In this document: positions 53,952 through 61,452 of the stretch, in pieces | Numbering within the stretch: position 1 is the stretch's first letter | Layout: every line of letters starts with the position of its first letter | Source of the DNA: Chitinophagaceae bacterium | Lineage (GTDB): Bacteria; Bacteroidota; Bacteroidia; Chitinophagales; Chitinophagaceae | NCBI GenBank assembly: GCA_947380905.1 | Contig: CANCSS010000002.1 | Span: 1 to 64,000, forward strand | Length of the DNA: 64,000 bases | Reading direction: 5' to 3' | The notes under the pieces: generated by a model | Databases searched by the model: none | What the model was told of the DNA's origin: nothing | Seen by the model: only the letters and a program-made list of their open reading frames with translations | Position numbers and translations under genes: made by a program

Positions 53952-54974
53952 TTAAGAATACAACTTTATTAATTTTTCCAATGATTTCATGGGTACCGTT
54001 TCATACACTGCCTGACCCATCTTTTTCAATAATACATATTGCATCCCTGCACGTGCATTTTTCTTATCTTTTTGCATGACCTGCATAGCTTGGTCAATAT
54101 TAAAACGCATGCTAGTAGGCAATCCGTATTTTTTTAAAGTATCCACCAATAAACCTGTATCATTAAATCCTTGTAAGACTTGTGAAATTTTACTGGCATA
54201 CACCATGCCAATACTTATTGCATGTCCATGCAATAAAGCATGTTCATTTTCAATGGCATGGCCCAAAGTATGTCCAAAATTGAGCAACTTGCGATCGCCT
54301 TTTTCAAACTCATCTTGCTGCACCACTTTTACTTTAATTTGAACATTTTTTTCAATTAGCGCAGCCAATGATTTTTTGTCCTTTTGATAATGAGCTATAT
54401 TTTTACTTGCCAATTCCTTCATCATTTTAGCATCTTTGATGGCTGCATGCTTTATAATTTCTGCAAACCCATTTTCCCATTGATGATTGGGTAAAGTTTT
54501 TAAAAAATCTAAATCGTACAATAAAAAAGAAGGTTGTCTTATTAATCCGACCATGTTTTTATACAAGCCTACATCAATTCCATTTTTTCCGCCAATAGAG
54601 GCGTCCACCATGGCTAAAATAGTAGTGGGCACAAAACCTACTGCTACTCCGCGCATATATACACCTGCTACATAACCCACCATATCTGTTACTACTCCAC
54701 CCCCCACACCAATGAGTACCGCTTGTCTAGTAGCACCAAAATTGAGTAAGGCTTCAATGATAAAGTCGACGGTTGCTTGATGTTTATGTTCTTCGCCAGA
54801 TGGAATGACAATGGTTTTTTTCGCTTTGAATTTATTTTCATGTAAAGCATATACGTTTTCATCTGTAATATAAAAAGCATTGGCTTTGTCCACCATTTTA
54901 TCTATAGCAGCAAACTTACCATCTAACACAAACGATACGGTACTTTTAGAAAATTTAACCTTCCTGGTTTTCAT
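53952..54974 (-). CDS. aroB: 3-dehydroquinate synthase
   Basis: GVGGGVVTDMVGYVAGVYMRGVAVGFVPTTILAMVDASIGGKNGID; NFGHTLGHAIE. Confidence 0.95.
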   Translation of the reverse strand: MKTRKVKFSKSTVSFVLDGKFAAIDKMVDKANAFYITDENVYALHENKFKAKKTIVIPSGEEHKHQATVDFIIEALLNFGATRQAVLIGVGGGVVTDMVGYVAGVYMRGVAVGFVPTTILAMVDASIGGKNGIDVGLYKNMVGLIRQPSFLLYDLDFLKTLPNHQWENGFAEIIKHAAIKDAKMMKELASKNIAHYQKDKKSLAALIEKNVQIKVKVVQQDEFEKGDRKLLNFGHTLGHAIENEHALLHGHAISIGMVYASKISQVLQGFNDTGLLVDTLKKYGLPTSMRFNIDQAMQVMQKDKKNARAGMQYVLLKKMGQAVYETVPMKSLEKLIKLYS

Positions 54975-55038: not shown

Positions 55039-56133
55039 TTAACTGTTCATTATTTTATTTTGATGATTGATGCTTTCCATATGCACTGCATCCATGTACT
55101 TGGTAATAAAGTCTTCGCTTAAACCCACTTTATTCCCTTTTCCAACAGCACGCTCCAATATTTCATTCCAACGATTGGTTTGCAAAATGGTAATGTCATT
55201 GTTCTTCTTATATTCTCCGATTTTTTCTGCTACTTTCATACGAGTAGACAATACTTGCAACAATTCGTCATCTAATTGATTGATTTGCTGACGTAATTTT
55301 TCCAATGCTGTATGGTATTCTTCAGAAGCCACATCTTCTTTTCTCCAACGGATGGCTTCCAACATGGTTTTTAAAACTTCGGGTGTAATTTGTTGCTTCG
55401 CATCACTCCAGGCATTGTCTGGGTCAATATGCGACTCTATAATTAAACCATCAAAATCTAAATCCATGGCTTGTTGCGCTACCTCTTGTAAAATATCGCG
55501 ACGCCCACAAATATGTGATGGATCATTGATCATAGGAATATTAGCATAACGGCGTTTCATCTCAATGGCCAAATGCCACATGGGTGCATTTCGGTATTCT
55601 GTATTTCCATAGGAACTAAATCCACGGTGGATCAATCCCAATTCTTCAATACCCGCTTTTGCAATACGCTCCATACCACCAATCCATAATTCTAAATCTG
55701 GATTGATTGGATTTTTAATTAACACTGGAACCTTTACTCCTTTTAAAGCATCTGCAATTTCTTGCACACTAAAAGGATTCACAGTGGTACGTGCTCCTAC
55801 CCACAATACATCTACATCAAAGTGCAAGGCATCTTCTACTTGTTTGGCAGTAGCTACTTCCACCGCAACTGGTAAGCCGGTTTCTTTCTTGGCTTGTTGT
55901 AACCAAGGCAAACCCTTGGTACCAATGCCTTCAAAACTTCCAGGTCTTGTCCTAGGTTTCCAAATACCTGCACGCATAATATCCACTTTCCCAGTAGCTG
56001 CCAATCTTATAGCAGTTTGCATCACTTGCTCTTCGGTCTCTGCACTGCAAGGACCAGAAATGATCAAGGGTGATTTTTTTAATAAAATGCTTACTTTTTG
56101 TTGTTGTTCTGTTAAGTCTCCCATTTTTTCCAA
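55039..56133 (-). CDS. Bifunctional DAHP synthase/chorismate mutase
   Basis: LIISGPCSAETEEQV; MRAGIWKPRTRPGSFEGIG; IMINDPSH-like segment; C-terminal chorismate mutase LRQQINQLDDELLQVLSTRMKVAEKIGEYKK. Confidence 0.94.
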   Translation of the reverse strand: MEKMGDLTEQQQKVSILLKKSPLIISGPCSAETEEQVMQTAIRLAATGKVDIMRAGIWKPRTRPGSFEGIGTKGLPWLQQAKKETGLPVAVEVATAKQVEDALHFDVDVLWVGARTTVNPFSVQEIADALKGVKVPVLIKNPINPDLELWIGGMERIAKAGIEELGLIHRGFSSYGNTEYRNAPMWHLAIEMKRRYANIPMINDPSHICGRRDILQEVAQQAMDLDFDGLIIESHIDPDNAWSDAKQQITPEVLKTMLEAIRWRKEDVASEEYHTALEKLRQQINQLDDELLQVLSTRMKVAEKIGEYKKNNDITILQTNRWNEILERAVGKGNKVGLSEDFITKYMDAVHMESINHQNKIMNS

Positions 56134-56188: not shown

Positions 56189-58009
56189 CTATCCTTCTTT
56201 TCTACTAAAACCTTTTGGACCACCACTGTCTGCATCATTCATTCTAATACGACGGCCTTTGTAATTTTTACCATCCACCGCATTAATCATTTGTTTTGCA
56301 GCACCTGATTCAATTTCTACCCAGCTGTTCATATCGCGCATATCAATTTTTCCTAAAGCTTCTTTTCGCAAGTCGCTCATATCTAATATGAATTGTAAAA
56401 AACTAGCTTTGTAAAAACCATCTTTGGTACCTAAGTTAACAAACAGTCTTGTATAACCACTTGCGCCTCTTTCCGCACCGCGACTTCCACGATCTACTGG
56501 AGTTCGCTCCATGCCACGATCATTGCTTCTGGCTCTGCCGCGATCTGCACCACCAAATTCTTGACGACCTCTGTCTCGATTGCGATCTTGTTGTTGCATC
56601 GGTTCACGACGTCCTCTTTCTGCAGTGCGTATGTTTAAATCTTGTGCGTTCTCGTAATAACTTAAGAATCGGTTAAATTCTAGGGCAGCCACACGTTTTA
56701 ATATTTCTTCCTTGCTCATGTCTGCAAATTTTTCTGCCAACATGGGAACATAGGTTTCATAATCGCCATGACTTACATCGGTAGACATTAATTTATCCAT
56801 GACATGGAAAAATTGTTTTCTACAAACATCCTTACCACTAGGTATGTCCAATTTATGGAAAGTACACTTGTTCATGTTTTCAATCTGACGCAAACGATAC
56901 GACTCACGTGCATGCACGATAGAGATACAAATACCCTGACTTCCAGCACGACCTGTTCGACCACTACGGTGCGTATACACTTCAACATCATCCGGTAATT
57001 CAAAGTTGATTACGTGGGTAATTCCTTTTACATCAATACCTCTTGCAGCCACATCTGTTGCAATTAATAATTGTAAAGTTTTATCTCTAAACTGACCCAT
57101 CACTCTATCACGTTGTTGTTGCGTCAAATCGCCATGGATGGCATCAATATCATAACCCTCACGCGTTAATCGTTGTGCTACTTCTTGAGCATCCGCTTTT
57201 GTTCTAGTAAAAATGATACCATAAATGCCTGGGTTAAAATCGATGATTCTTTTTAAAGTTTCATAGCGATGTTGGGCAGATGTTAAATAATACTGGTGAT
57301 CAATACTTTTATTGGTCGCATTCACTTTCCCAATGGTCACTTCCACTGGCTCTTTCATGTAACGCTTACTTACTTTTCTAATTTCAGCAGGCATGGTGGC
57401 ACTAAACAACCAAATACTTTCTCTATTAGGTGTATTTTTTAAGATAAATTCAATATCATCTTGGAATCCCATGTTTAACATTTCATCTGCCTCATCCAAC
57501 ACAACATATTCTATCTTTTCTAAGTTGATCGCTTTTCTTTCAATTAAATCAATTAAACGACCTGGAGTGGCTACAACCACTTGTACCCCTCTTTTTAAAT
57601 CTTTAATTTGCAAACCAATGGAGGTTCCACCATAAACAGCTAAAACTTGTAAACCTGGAATATGCTTTTTGAACAAATTCATTTCGCTTACAATTTGCAT
57701 ACACAATTCTCTGGTAGGACAAACCACTAAAGCCTGCGGAAATCTATCTGCCGTTTTAATCAATTGCAATAATGGCAAACCAAAAGCGGCTGTTTTACCA
57801 GTTCCCGTTTGAGCTAAACCAATAAAATCTTTTGTACCGCTTATCAAAACAGGTATAGAACGCTCCTGAATTTCAGTAGCATGTGTATAACCCAATTCTG
57901 TAACTGCCTTCACCAATTGATCATTAATCCCAATTTCAGTAAATGTCTTTTTCGACTTTACTGCTTCAATCAATTCATTGGTAATTTCTACTTCTTCTTT
58001 CTTCTTCAT
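56189..58009 (-). CDS. DEAD-box RNA helicase with Arg/Gly/Asp-rich linker and DbpA-like RNA-binding C-terminus
   Basis: AQTGTGKTAAFGLPLL, DEAD, SAT, HRSGRTGRAG; linker RNRDRGRQEFGGADRGRARSNDRGMERTPVDRG; TRLFVNLGTKDGFYKASFLQFI. Confidence 0.93.
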   Translation of the reverse strand: MKKKEEVEITNELIEAVKSKKTFTEIGINDQLVKAVTELGYTHATEIQERSIPVLISGTKDFIGLAQTGTGKTAAFGLPLLQLIKTADRFPQALVVCPTRELCMQIVSEMNLFKKHIPGLQVLAVYGGTSIGLQIKDLKRGVQVVVATPGRLIDLIERKAINLEKIEYVVLDEADEMLNMGFQDDIEFILKNTPNRESIWLFSATMPAEIRKVSKRYMKEPVEVTIGKVNATNKSIDHQYYLTSAQHRYETLKRIIDFNPGIYGIIFTRTKADAQEVAQRLTREGYDIDAIHGDLTQQQRDRVMGQFRDKTLQLLIATDVAARGIDVKGITHVINFELPDDVEVYTHRSGRTGRAGSQGICISIVHARESYRLRQIENMNKCTFHKLDIPSGKDVCRKQFFHVMDKLMSTDVSHGDYETYVPMLAEKFADMSKEEILKRVAALEFNRFLSYYENAQDLNIRTAERGRREPMQQQDRNRDRGRQEFGGADRGRARSNDRGMERTPVDRGSRGAERGASGYTRLFVNLGTKDGFYKASFLQFILDMSDLRKEALGKIDMRDMNSWVEIESGAAKQMINAVDGKNYKGRRIRMNDADSGGPKGFSRKEG

Positions 58010-58056
58010 TTTTATATTTTTTTGCTTAGTCACCTAAAGTGCTTTGCTTTTTTTAA

Positions 58057-58896
58057 TTATTTTAAAATCCTTTTTATTTGATTGGCATTTTGAATCAATT
58101 CCAATAAGTAAGCTGGATTTTCTTTTTCCAAACTTGCTTTGAATTTTTTTAATTGACTTATATGCTCATTCAAAACATCTAATACATTTTCTTTGTTTTG
58201 CATAAAAATGGGAACCCACATTTCCGCATTGGACTTGGCCAAACGCACTGTGCTTTCAAAACCACTACTCGCTAACTCAAAAATCGCATCAGATTCTTTT
58301 TCCTTCTCCAGCACCGTATTTGCCAATGCAAAAGAAGTAATATGTGAGATATGACTCACATAAGCTACATGTATGTCATGTTTGATGGCATTCATATAAA
58401 GTATATGCATACCTAAAGCTTGATATATTTTTTCTACCAATTGTAATGCATCTGCATCTACTTGCTCTTTGTTACAAATGATCGTAGCCTTATCAACAAA
58501 AGCATCATCTTGAGCTGCTGTTGGACCACTAAATTCTGTACCCCACATAGGATGTGTTGGAACAAAACGACCTTTGTTTACATGTGCATAGGCAATGTTT
58601 ACAATACTTTCTTTGGTAGAACCTACATCAAAAACAACTTGCTTGTTCACCAAGTTTAATATAGTGGGCAATAAATTTTCAGCTACGTTGATAGGTGTTG
58701 CAATCACAATAATATCAGAAGTAGCAATGGCTGCTTCCAATGTCATGATTTCATCTACAATACCCAATTGCAATGCCATGTTTTGGTGTTCGATGTTCGA
58801 ATCCACTCCAATAACCTTGGATACCATGCCTTTCTTTTTCAAAGACATCGCCAGTGAACCTCCCATTAAACCAATTCCAATGACTGTTAAACGCAT
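58057..58896 (-). CDS. tyrA: Prephenate dehydrogenase
   Basis: VIGIGLMGGSLAMSLKKKG; FVPTHPMWGTEFSGP. Confidence 0.9.
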   Translation of the reverse strand: MRLTVIGIGLMGGSLAMSLKKKGMVSKVIGVDSNIEHQNMALQLGIVDEIMTLEAAIATSDIIVIATPINVAENLLPTILNLVNKQVVFDVGSTKESIVNIAYAHVNKGRFVPTHPMWGTEFSGPTAAQDDAFVDKATIICNKEQVDADALQLVEKIYQALGMHILYMNAIKHDIHVAYVSHISHITSFALANTVLEKEKESDAIFELASSGFESTVRLAKSNAEMWVPIFMQNKENVLDVLNEHISQLKKFKASLEKENPAYLLELIQNANQIKRILK

Positions 58897-60050
58897 GCTT
58901 CAATTCTTTTAATGGCTACACTAAATTTTTCTATGGAACCACATAAACTCACTCTGATGTATTCATTGCCTGCAGCACCAAAAATGCCACCAGGGGTAAT
59001 AAAAACATTAGCATCATATAATACCTTATCACTTAATGCATATCCATCTTTGTAAGTTGCGGGAATTTTGGCCCATACAAACATGCCTACTTGTTGCTTA
59101 GAATAGACACATTTTAAAACATCTAATAACTCGAATACTTTTTCACGTCGTGCTGTATATATTTTATTCACGGAGTCATACCAACTCTGATCCAGACTTA
59201 ATGCCTTAGCCGCAGCTAATTGCACCGGCAAAAACATGCCACTGTCCATATTGGATTTAAACCTAAGTATTTCATTGATTCTATCTTCGGCAGCAATTAA
59301 CATGCCTACTCTCCATCCTGCCATGTTCTGGCTTTTACTTAGAGAGTTTAATTCGATCACTACCTCTTTGGCCCCTTCTATAGACAATAAACTTTGTGGT
59401 TGATCATTTAAAATAAAGGCATAAGGATTGTCATGACAAATCAATATTTGATGCTTTTTTCCAAAGGCGACTATTTTTTCAAATAATTCTTTTGTTGGCC
59501 TTTGACCTGTTGGCATATGTGGATAGTTTACCCACATTAACTTGACTTTTGATAAATCTGATTTTTCTAAATTTTCAAAGTCAGGCGCCCAACTGTTATC
59601 GGCAGTCAACTCATAGTATAACGGGGTCCCTCCCGCTAATTTAACTGCACTTGTATATGTTGGATAACCAGGATTAGGAATTAATACCTGATCTCCTTCA
59701 TTTAAATAGGTCATACATATATGCATGATCCCTTCTTTACTTCCCAATAAGGGAAGTACTTCGGTAGCTGGATTGATATCCGCTACCTTAAAGTATTTTT
59801 TATACCAATTGGCTATGGCCTCTCTTAAAATAGGAGACCCTTTGTAAGATTGATAGCCATGTACATTTTCTTTGGTCGATTCTTCCTGCAATGTTTTAAT
59901 CACATCAGGATGTGGAGGTAAATCGGGACTGCCTATCCCTAAATTAACAATCCCCTTACCGGCTTTATTGAGTTCATCAATTTCACGCAGCTTCGTAGAA
60001 AAATAATATTCTCCTATCCCATCTAATCTATGTGCTAAATTCCAATTCAT
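58887..60050 (-). CDS. Class I/II aminotransferase
   Basis: LGIGSPDLPPHPDVI; PNPGYPTYTSAVKLAGGTP; PLP-lysine region SLSKSQNMAGWRVGML. Confidence 0.92.
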   Translation of the reverse strand: MNWNLAHRLDGIGEYYFSTKLREIDELNKAGKGIVNLGIGSPDLPPHPDVIKTLQEESTKENVHGYQSYKGSPILREAIANWYKKYFKVADINPATEVLPLLGSKEGIMHICMTYLNEGDQVLIPNPGYPTYTSAVKLAGGTPLYYELTADNSWAPDFENLEKSDLSKVKLMWVNYPHMPTGQRPTKELFEKIVAFGKKHQILICHDNPYAFILNDQPQSLLSIEGAKEVVIELNSLSKSQNMAGWRVGMLIAAEDRINEILRFKSNMDSGMFLPVQLAAAKALSLDQSWYDSVNKIYTARREKVFELLDVLKCVYSKQQVGMFVWAKIPATYKDGYALSDKVLYDANVFITPGGIFGAAGNEYIRVSLCGSIEKFSVAIKRIEACV

Positions 60051-60052
60051 AA

Positions 60053-60889
60053 TTACCCTTTTACAACTTTACCCTTGTTATACAACCCAAATATTTTAAT
60101 ACTATTGGTTAAAGATTTTACCTCTTCCAATGTTTTTTCAATTTGTTTTTTATTTTCAAATTCCAAATCAGCATAAAAACCATATTTAAACGTACTTCCT
60201 GGTATGGGCATACTTTGCAACTTGCTTAAATTGACATGGCCTTGCGCTATCTTGGCCAACACTTTTGCAAGAATCCCTCTAGAATGATCGGTTTGAAAAT
60301 AAATGGATGCCTTGTTTGGATTTTCAATCATAGTTTTAGCACCGATAGGCTCCATCACTAAAAAACGAGTGATGTTATTTTTTAAAGTATGGATATCGGG
60401 AGCTGCTATTTCTAAATCATACATTTGGGCCGCCAATTTACTTGCAATGGCTGCCGTATGTTTGCTTTTATTTTGATGTACTTGCTTTGCACTTAATGCA
60501 GTATCCTCCGACTCTACCAATTTCCAATTGTACTTTTCTAAATAATCTAAGCATTGTAAAATAGCCATCGGATGACTGTGCACTTCTTTAATATCTGTCA
60601 ATTTCACTCCTGGATAAGTCAATAAATTTTGACTGATAGATAAGTACACTTCTCCGATCACTTTTAAATTGCTTTTCTGTAACAAATTGTAATTGGGTAA
60701 AATACTGCCTGCAATAGAATTTTCAATGGCCATCACCGCCCCATCTGACAAGGTAGTATTTGCTCCAATTTGAACTACTTTCCTAAAAGTATCACAAGTA
60801 ATGACCTCGACATTTTTGCCAAAAAAATGCCTTGCCGCCACTTGGTGGAAACTTCCTTCATATCCTTGTATCGTTACCTTTTTGCTCAT
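60053..60889 (-). CDS. pheA: Prephenate dehydratase
   Basis: IQGYEGSFHQVAARHFFG; AIENSIAGSILPNYNLL; ACT-domain region TDHSRGILAKVLAKIAQGHVNLSKLQSMPIPG. Confidence 0.94.
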   Translation of the reverse strand: MSKKVTIQGYEGSFHQVAARHFFGKNVEVITCDTFRKVVQIGANTTLSDGAVMAIENSIAGSILPNYNLLQKSNLKVIGEVYLSISQNLLTYPGVKLTDIKEVHSHPMAILQCLDYLEKYNWKLVESEDTALSAKQVHQNKSKHTAAIASKLAAQMYDLEIAAPDIHTLKNNITRFLVMEPIGAKTMIENPNKASIYFQTDHSRGILAKVLAKIAQGHVNLSKLQSMPIPGSTFKYGFYADLEFENKKQIEKTLEEVKSLTNSIKIFGLYNKGKVVKG

Positions 60890-60920
60890 AAAAAAAATCC
60901 CGGCTTTGTGGGCCGGGATT
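60890..60920 (-). terminator. Attenuator terminator abutting the pheA start codon
   Basis: Minus strand AATCCCGGC-CCACAAA-GCCGGGATT followed by a T-tract (60890-60897) ending directly at the pheA ATG (60889). Confidence 0.88.
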
Positions 60921-60939
60921 GTATATTTAGTTATTTCGT

Positions 60940-61026
60940 TTACGCTTTTACAAATACTACCCGGCTACTTTGGTTAAAGTAGAAATAAAAGAAAAAGTAA
61001 AACCAATTGTTAATATTTGCTTTCAT
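60940..61026 (-). CDS. Aromatic leader peptide MKANINNWFYFFFYFYFNQSSRVVFVKA (candidate attenuation peptide)
   Basis: Read codon by codon on the minus strand: ATG AAA GCA AAT ATT AAC AAT TGG TTT TAC TTT TTC TTT TAT TTC TAC TTT AAC CAA AGT AGC CGG GTA GTA TTT GTA AAA GCG TAA. Absent from the ORF track because it is short. Confidence 0.9.
   Translation of the reverse strand: MKANINNWFYFFFYFYFNQSSRVVFVKA
60965..60982 (-). promoter_or_regulatory. Leader 1:2 hairpin CTACTTT-AACC-AAAGTAG
   Basis: Perfect 7-bp stem overlapping the last Tyr-Phe codons; its 3' arm continues into CCGGG, complementary to the terminator 5' arm. Confidence 0.75.
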
Positions 61027-61033
61027 CTTGGCA

Positions 61034-61067
61034 CAAAGGTAGGTTAAAATGGGCTATCCATCAAAAA
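61034..61067 (-). promoter_or_regulatory. Bacteroidota-type promoter of the leader/aromatic operon
   Basis: Minus strand TTTTTG (61062-61067), 20-nt spacer, TACCTTTG (61034-61041): matches TTTG-N17-23-TAnnTTTG. Confidence 0.75.
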
Positions 61068-61175
61068 TGATTCCATTTTTAGAGCTAAAAACTAACAAAT
61101 ATTCGCTTTTGAGGTTTTATGGGTGCCCTCTAAAAAGCTAGCCCGCACCAACTTGGACTGCACGGCTCCTAAAAA

Positions 61176-61201
61176 AACCGCCCAGATAAATCGGGGCGGT
61201 T
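61176..61201 (-). terminator. Intrinsic terminator downstream of the small lipoprotein gene
   Basis: aaccgccc-agataaatcg-gggcggtt with adjacent A-tract (T-tract on minus strand). Confidence 0.75.
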
Positions 61202-61287: not shown

Positions 61288-61452
61288 TTATTTTGCTTTA
61301 GCAGCAGTATCAACCGCTTTAGCAGCAGTATCAACCATTACAGCTTTTGCAGTATCAACTTTTGCAACAGCAGTGTCAGTTTTTGCTTCAGTTGAAGCAC
61401 CACCACAAGCAGCTAATGCAGCGATAGCGAAAATTGCGAATACTTTTTTCAT
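61288..61452 (-). CDS. Small 54-aa lipoprotein with VDTA(A)KA repeats
   Basis: MKKVFAIFAIAALAACGGASTEAKTDTAVAKVDTAKAVMVDTAAKAVDTAAKAK; clear lipobox LAAC; missing from the ORF track. Confidence 0.8.
   Translation of the reverse strand: MKKVFAIFAIAALAACGGASTEAKTDTAVAKVDTAKAVMVDTAAKAVDTAAKAK
61295..61336. repeat. Perfect tandem duplication of 21 bp (gctttagcagcagtatcaacc x2)
   Basis: Direct reading; encodes VDTAAKA twice. Confidence 0.9.

Follow-up and report, generated by a model that had tools for sequence, protein, structure and literature searches.

A conserved Phe- and Tyr-rich leader ORF and predicted transcription attenuator with a predicted near-leaderless start upstream of pheA in Chitinophagaceae

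Many bacteria use leader-peptide attenuation; in the E. coli pheL-pheA system, a short Phe-rich leader peptide is combined with a terminator upstream of pheA and with alternative folds of the leader RNA. The Bacteroid-trp RNA (RF01692), known in Bacteroidetes (PMC2864571, PMC6414381), has been likened to the E. coli trp leader (PMC6414381). In Flavobacterium psychrophilum, a structured, conserved 5′ element is found upstream of pheA and amino-acid operons are reported to show strong signs of leader-peptide attenuation, the main text giving no mechanism for the pheA element (PMC9723704). A 5′-terminal start codon is found in the leaderless trpL of Sinorhizobium meliloti and in the leaderless ilvBNC leader of Corynebacterium glutamicum (PMC7298713, PMC11857589).

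Here we describe a leader upstream of pheA in a Chitinophagaceae bacterium, found in a 64,000-nucleotide stretch of DNA that was analysed as a whole (the window). With E. coli pheL-pheA (Rfam RF01859, Phe_leader) it shares the short Phe-rich peptide, the terminator before pheA and the alternative folds, and it differs in having Tyr as well as Phe codons, in an operon that also contains tyrA and aro genes, in a start codon that nearly coincides with the predicted 5′ end and in a region 2 that lies wholly within the ORF. The Bacteroid-trp RNA also comes from this phylum and is a leader transcript of a biosynthetic operon but, unlike the pheA leader, it serves a Trp operon. The F. psychrophilum element, likened here by its published description, is also a 5′ element upstream of pheA and comes from another Bacteroidota family. 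The S. meliloti trpL and C. glutamicum ilvBNC leaders share a peptide start at or near the RNA 5′ end (predicted here), whereas they concern other phyla and other amino acids, and in most of the present leaders a predicted 0-4 nt precede the AUG. The initial annotation of this locus knew of no experimental description of such a leader; its suggestion of novelty does not extend to attenuation in Bacteroidota as such, which is already described or suspected through the Bacteroid-trp RNA and the F. psychrophilum pheA element (PMC9723704, PMC6414381).

Rfam, Pfam and NCBIfam contain no entry matching the pheA leader. The window leader scores 32.1 bits with the Phe_leader RF01859 covariance model, below the gathering score of 55, and RF01692 gave no match at its gathering score in the window or at the tested loci. 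Many sub-threshold matches in an Rfam E-value search were rejected as probably driven by the terminator hairpin. A search of the literature for Bacteroidota leader peptides combined with attenuation returned no match; older comparative papers may contain predictions. The reading that the pheA leader would work like pheL and trpL, with Phe plus Tyr control, the near-leaderless start and a region 2 inside the ORF as its distinctive features, is well supported by the comparisons below.

The window's genome comprises 1.97 Mb and is 82% complete, and the named relatives of its pheA are of the Sediminibacterium type and other Chitinophagaceae. On the minus strand the leader is followed by pheA, an aminotransferase gene, tyrA, a DEAD-box helicase gene, a gene for a DAHP synthase-chorismate mutase and aroB:

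60940..61026, minus strand: leader ORF of 28 codons, MKANINNWFYFFFYFYFNQSSRVVFVKA (from sequence and translation)
60976..61005, minus strand: ten aromatic control codons, W F Y F F F Y F Y F (from translation; Phe/Tyr positions conserved)
60053..60889, minus strand: pheA, prephenate dehydratase (best NCBIfam match PRK11898, below the curated cut-off)
58887..60050, minus strand: class I aminotransferase
58057..58896, minus strand: tyrA, prephenate dehydrogenase (above cut-off)
56189..58033, minus strand: DEAD-box RNA helicase
55039..56133, minus strand: DAHP synthase fused to chorismate mutase
53952..54974, minus strand: aroB, 3-dehydroquinate synthase (above cut-off)

The helicase gene separates tyrA from the DAHP synthase gene in seven further genomes of the genus as well, an order that is absent from the single genome of another family in which all three genes were found.

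The leader ORF carries a run of codons for the products of the operon that it precedes, and the ten aromatic codons in succession reported in the initial annotation, like its ORF, its regions 1 to 4 and its T-tract, were confirmed at the same coordinates by translation, sequence and a terminator scan. It is the only one of the window's ~1,070 small ATG ORFs to reach 9 or more aromatics within 12 residues. The RNA elements are as follows:

60976..60982, minus strand: region 1, CTACTTT
60960..60971, minus strand: region 2, AAAGTAGCCGGG, within the ORF
60950..60957, minus strand: inner antiterminator arm, GTATTTGT (predicted fold; with column equivalents in the alignment of relatives)
60923..60931, minus strand: inner antiterminator partner, ACTAAATAT (predicted fold)
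60912..60920, minus strand: region 3, AATCCCGGC, the 5′ arm of the terminator and the 3′ arm of the antiterminator
60896..60904, minus strand: region 4, GCCGGGATT, the 3′ arm of the terminator (terminator scan)
60890..60897, minus strand: T-tract, adjoining the pheA start codon (ATG at 60889)

An intrinsic terminator is found by the scan between the leader ORF and pheA, and the antiterminator formed by regions 2 and 3 is mutually exclusive with it. In the window, the region 2-3 segment folds with a z of -2.3 relative to shuffles (2/200), and the full leader folds just moderately better than its shuffles (z -1.9). A TTGTA/TACAA pairing had been proposed to help the antiterminator; the predicted inner helix instead joins GTATTTGT and ACTAAATAT. 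That the leader ORF is more than chance follows from its unique aromatic density, the terminator scan match, a 2:3 pairing that beats shuffles and the recurrence of the layout in relatives. A separate hairpin and T-run (CCGCCC..GGGCGG TTTTTTT) is seen at 61171-61199 on the minus strand, between an upstream small ORF (61288-61452) and the leader promoter; since that ORF has this hairpin and T-run of its own (about 61199..61171), the pheA-leader terminator is not needed for it.

We fetched 110 pheA loci of the family, of which 108 were testable upstream, L052 (a 1,506-base locus) and L063 (just 196 nt in the examined stretch) being left out. Sequence comparison across these loci establishes the ORF, the promoter position, the terminator and the antiterminator as conserved elements. 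An aromatic-rich leader ORF is present at 108/108, with 6 to 11 aromatics in 12 residues, and a terminator hairpin was found by a simple search at 105/108, the three loci without one by this search being L094, L101 and L108. Nearly all of the 105 terminator-bearing loci have an exact complement (at least 5 nt) of the terminator 5′ arm upstream. Family-wide, the leader ORF measures 27.6 +/- 2.2 codons, region 2 lies 59.7 +/- 3.0 nt from the ATG and region 3 lies 53.4 +/- 4.3 nt from region 2, so that the geometry is tight from the ATG to region 3 and loose from the terminator to pheA (6 to 180 nt). Some members among L001-L110 have extra, unexplained sequence between the terminator and pheA. 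The leader peptides end in one of a few C-terminal types (SRVVF, PGMLLL and a short PGxFC), and because each is encoded by a GCCGGG-type region 2, the RNA appears to dictate the peptide end. Codon differences among close leaders are in excess at the third position (619 vs 288 and 164), as fits a translated ORF.

Pairing was examined in a non-redundant set of 57 leaders that are <88% identical, against shuffles that leave relatedness in, so that the following pairing counts are supportive and not probabilities: 97.6% of the cells of the 3:4 terminator are paired, with a covariation of 0.257 vs 0.136 shuffled (0/500) that is also above all slides; the core helix of the 2:3 antiterminator is 93.8% paired, with 10 pairs showing changes on both sides (1/500 shuffles); and the covariation of the whole antiterminator helix is matched by 0/500 shuffles and lies above all slides. 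The antiterminator folds with a mean z of -4.1, below -2 in 57/57. Individual loci illustrate the coupling: regions 2, 3 and 4 have changed jointly in L022, in L083, in L024 (CCGGGG/CCCCGG) and in L097 (GAGGAT/ATCCTC), and in L030 (GCCAGG/CCTGGC) regions 2 and 3 co-change while 3:4 survives via a G-U pair. The 1:2 hairpin, which overlaps the control codons, appears in most folds, with 76% of cells paired and a mean z of -2.3; its covariation is not clearly greater than that of shuffles, in part because its register shifts, and the predicted 1:2 helix is more weakly supported than the 3:4 and 2:3 helices. The reading in the initial annotation called for conserved leader ORFs and covarying stems in relatives, an expectation borne out for the ORF and for 3:4 and 2:3, with 1:2 covarying only weakly. 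Its general attenuation logic ahead of an aromatic operon is strongly supported by the comparison of relatives, less so for the 1:2 pairing than for 2:3 and 3:4. Comparison and pairing evidence together build a case for leader-peptide attenuation of aromatic biosynthesis in Chitinophagaceae, one that probably extends to more of the class.

We consider it very likely that the leader is a ribosome-mediated transcription attenuator that regulates the pheA-aminotransferase-tyrA-aro operon by sensing charged tRNA-Phe and tRNA-Tyr, and from the conserved layout we infer its transcription start, translation, stalling and read-through. Transcription would start ~3 nt upstream of the leader AUG, and a ribosome would load on the almost 5′-terminal start codon. 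When Phe or Tyr is short, the ribosome would stall in the middle or late part of the aromatic run and cover region 1; region 2 would then pair with region 3 in the long antiterminator, leaving region 4 single-stranded and allowing polymerase to enter pheA. When both amino acids are plentiful, the ribosome would cross the coding region 2 to the stop codon and keep region 2 and the inner arm unpaired, whereupon 3:4 would form and transcription would stop just upstream of pheA. If the leader is not translated, 1:2 would form and 3:4 would again terminate.

The locus was initially read as sensing Phe, Tyr and Trp together, and the Trp part of that reading is not supported by the leader sequences. 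Phe accounts for 345 residues across the 57 leaders, Tyr for 191 and Trp for 19; in nearly every leader, Phe or Tyr occupies codons -4 to -9 relative to region 2, and a Trp codon precedes region 2 in just 16/57. With an ordinary ribosome footprint, a ribosome halted at roughly codons 11 to 16 would mask region 1 and leave the GCCGGG of region 2 free, and one halted at Trp8 would fall short of region 1. Control by Phe and Tyr is predicted from the codon counts together with this footprint reasoning. That the same attenuator truly senses Trp as well, giving three-way aromatic control, would be in keeping with the retention of TGG at codon 8 in 17/19 distinct close leaders of the window's genus, yet it is unlikely given the rarity of Trp before region 2 in the family, the position of codon 8, which ends 20 nt upstream of region 1 so that a stall there would probably still let 1:2 form, and a separate WWW leader upstream of trpE in the same genome (L192).

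Two further explanations do without transcription attenuation by aromatic codons. The leader could act mainly on translation, the 3:4 hairpin occluding the pheA start in full-length mRNA, as would fit the 6 nt between the end of the hairpin and the pheA ATG in the window's genome; relatives keep the hairpin and T-tract although this distance ranges from 6 to 180 nt among them, and we regard this explanation as very improbable. Even less credible is a merely constitutive terminator behind an aromatic ORF that is a by-product of T-rich DNA: the aromatic run is indeed made of T-rich codons, but no testable family member lacks the ORF, regions 2 and 3 covary, the geometry is fixed, and of 28 additional loci scanned in other phylum lineages just one reaches a comparable aromatic content (7 aromatics), without a terminator.

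The leader's most unusual feature, absent from the initial annotation, is its predicted near-leaderless start behind a sigma-A -7 box. In the window, a perfect TTTG-N20-TAnnTTTG promoter ends 7 nt upstream of the leader ATG:

61062..61065, minus strand: -33 element, TTTG (exact match; 20 nt separate it from the -7 box)
61034..61041, minus strand: -7 box, TACCTTTG (consensus TAnnTTTG; exact match)
61029..61029, minus strand: predicted transcription start (A), with a 3-nt 5′UTR, AAG (from the F. psychrophilum -7 box position)

The -7 box lies 4-8 nt upstream of the leader ATG in 49/57 non-redundant leaders. At 3-9 nt upstream of the ATG, 41/57 leaders have a perfect box and 50/57 have one with no more than a single mismatch, vs 0.3% and 7.7%, respectively, of positions drawn at random from these upstream regions; only 1/52 window ORFs of at least 120 codons has a perfect box at such spacing. 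In F. psychrophilum the -7 box occupies -12 to -5 relative to the transcription start (PMC9723704), so that a spacing of 4 corresponds to no 5′UTR and a spacing of 7 to 3 nt, implying predicted 5′UTRs of about 0-4 nt for most Chitinophagaceae pheA leaders. Leaderless and very short 5′UTRs make up about 4-6% of mRNAs in F. psychrophilum and B. thetaiotaomicron (PMC9723704, PMC7366714). The near-leaderless start raises the testable question of how a ribosome loads on a short leader without Shine-Dalgarno before polymerase reaches the terminator.

Beyond the family, 32 pheA loci were sampled (L111 to L142), most of them belonging to the remaining families of the order and class and three (L140 to L142) to the rest of the phylum. 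A density of 7 or more aromatics in 12 residues is reached at 31/32, with a terminator behind most leaders and often a matching region 2; the leaders at L111 and L122 are far from pheA and may be chance. Where recognised in other families, the -7 box is usually about 16-32 nt upstream, with a spacing of 7-10 in L112, L113 and L115, which belong to a single family within the order. In the class outside Chitinophagaceae, a similar leader thus precedes most of the sampled pheA genes, usually with a longer 5′UTR, a breadth that the initial annotation overlooked.

Within the window's genus, similar leader ORFs are seen elsewhere. His-rich ORFs (e.g. MLFIHHTHHCHLLSKG) lie upstream of hisG at L171-L183, including the window's own genome (L178; C2, about 106 kb), and WWW ORFs (e.g. 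MKQTNNIWWWHTKSVRVL) lie upstream of trpE at L185-L197, again including the window's own genome (L192; C2, about 99 kb). The trpE leaders have no Rfam match at gathering score, and IlvD upstream regions showed no convincing leader within the genus and one weak candidate in another family (L214). We somewhat favour the idea that Chitinophagaceae possess a regulon of near-leaderless attenuators (Phe/Tyr-pheA, His-hisG and Trp-trpE) in which the -7 box places the AUG ~0-4 nt from the 5′ end; if true, it would permit immediate ribosome loading in a phylum without Shine-Dalgarno initiation where leaderless mRNAs are rare. The -7 box spacing was not matched by our script in some His and Trp leaders (e.g. 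L186, L189 and L193), and in most it is 4-8 nt for hisG and 5-7 nt for trpE. A hairpin and T-tract is present behind 10/10 of the His and Trp leaders checked (five hisG, five trpE).
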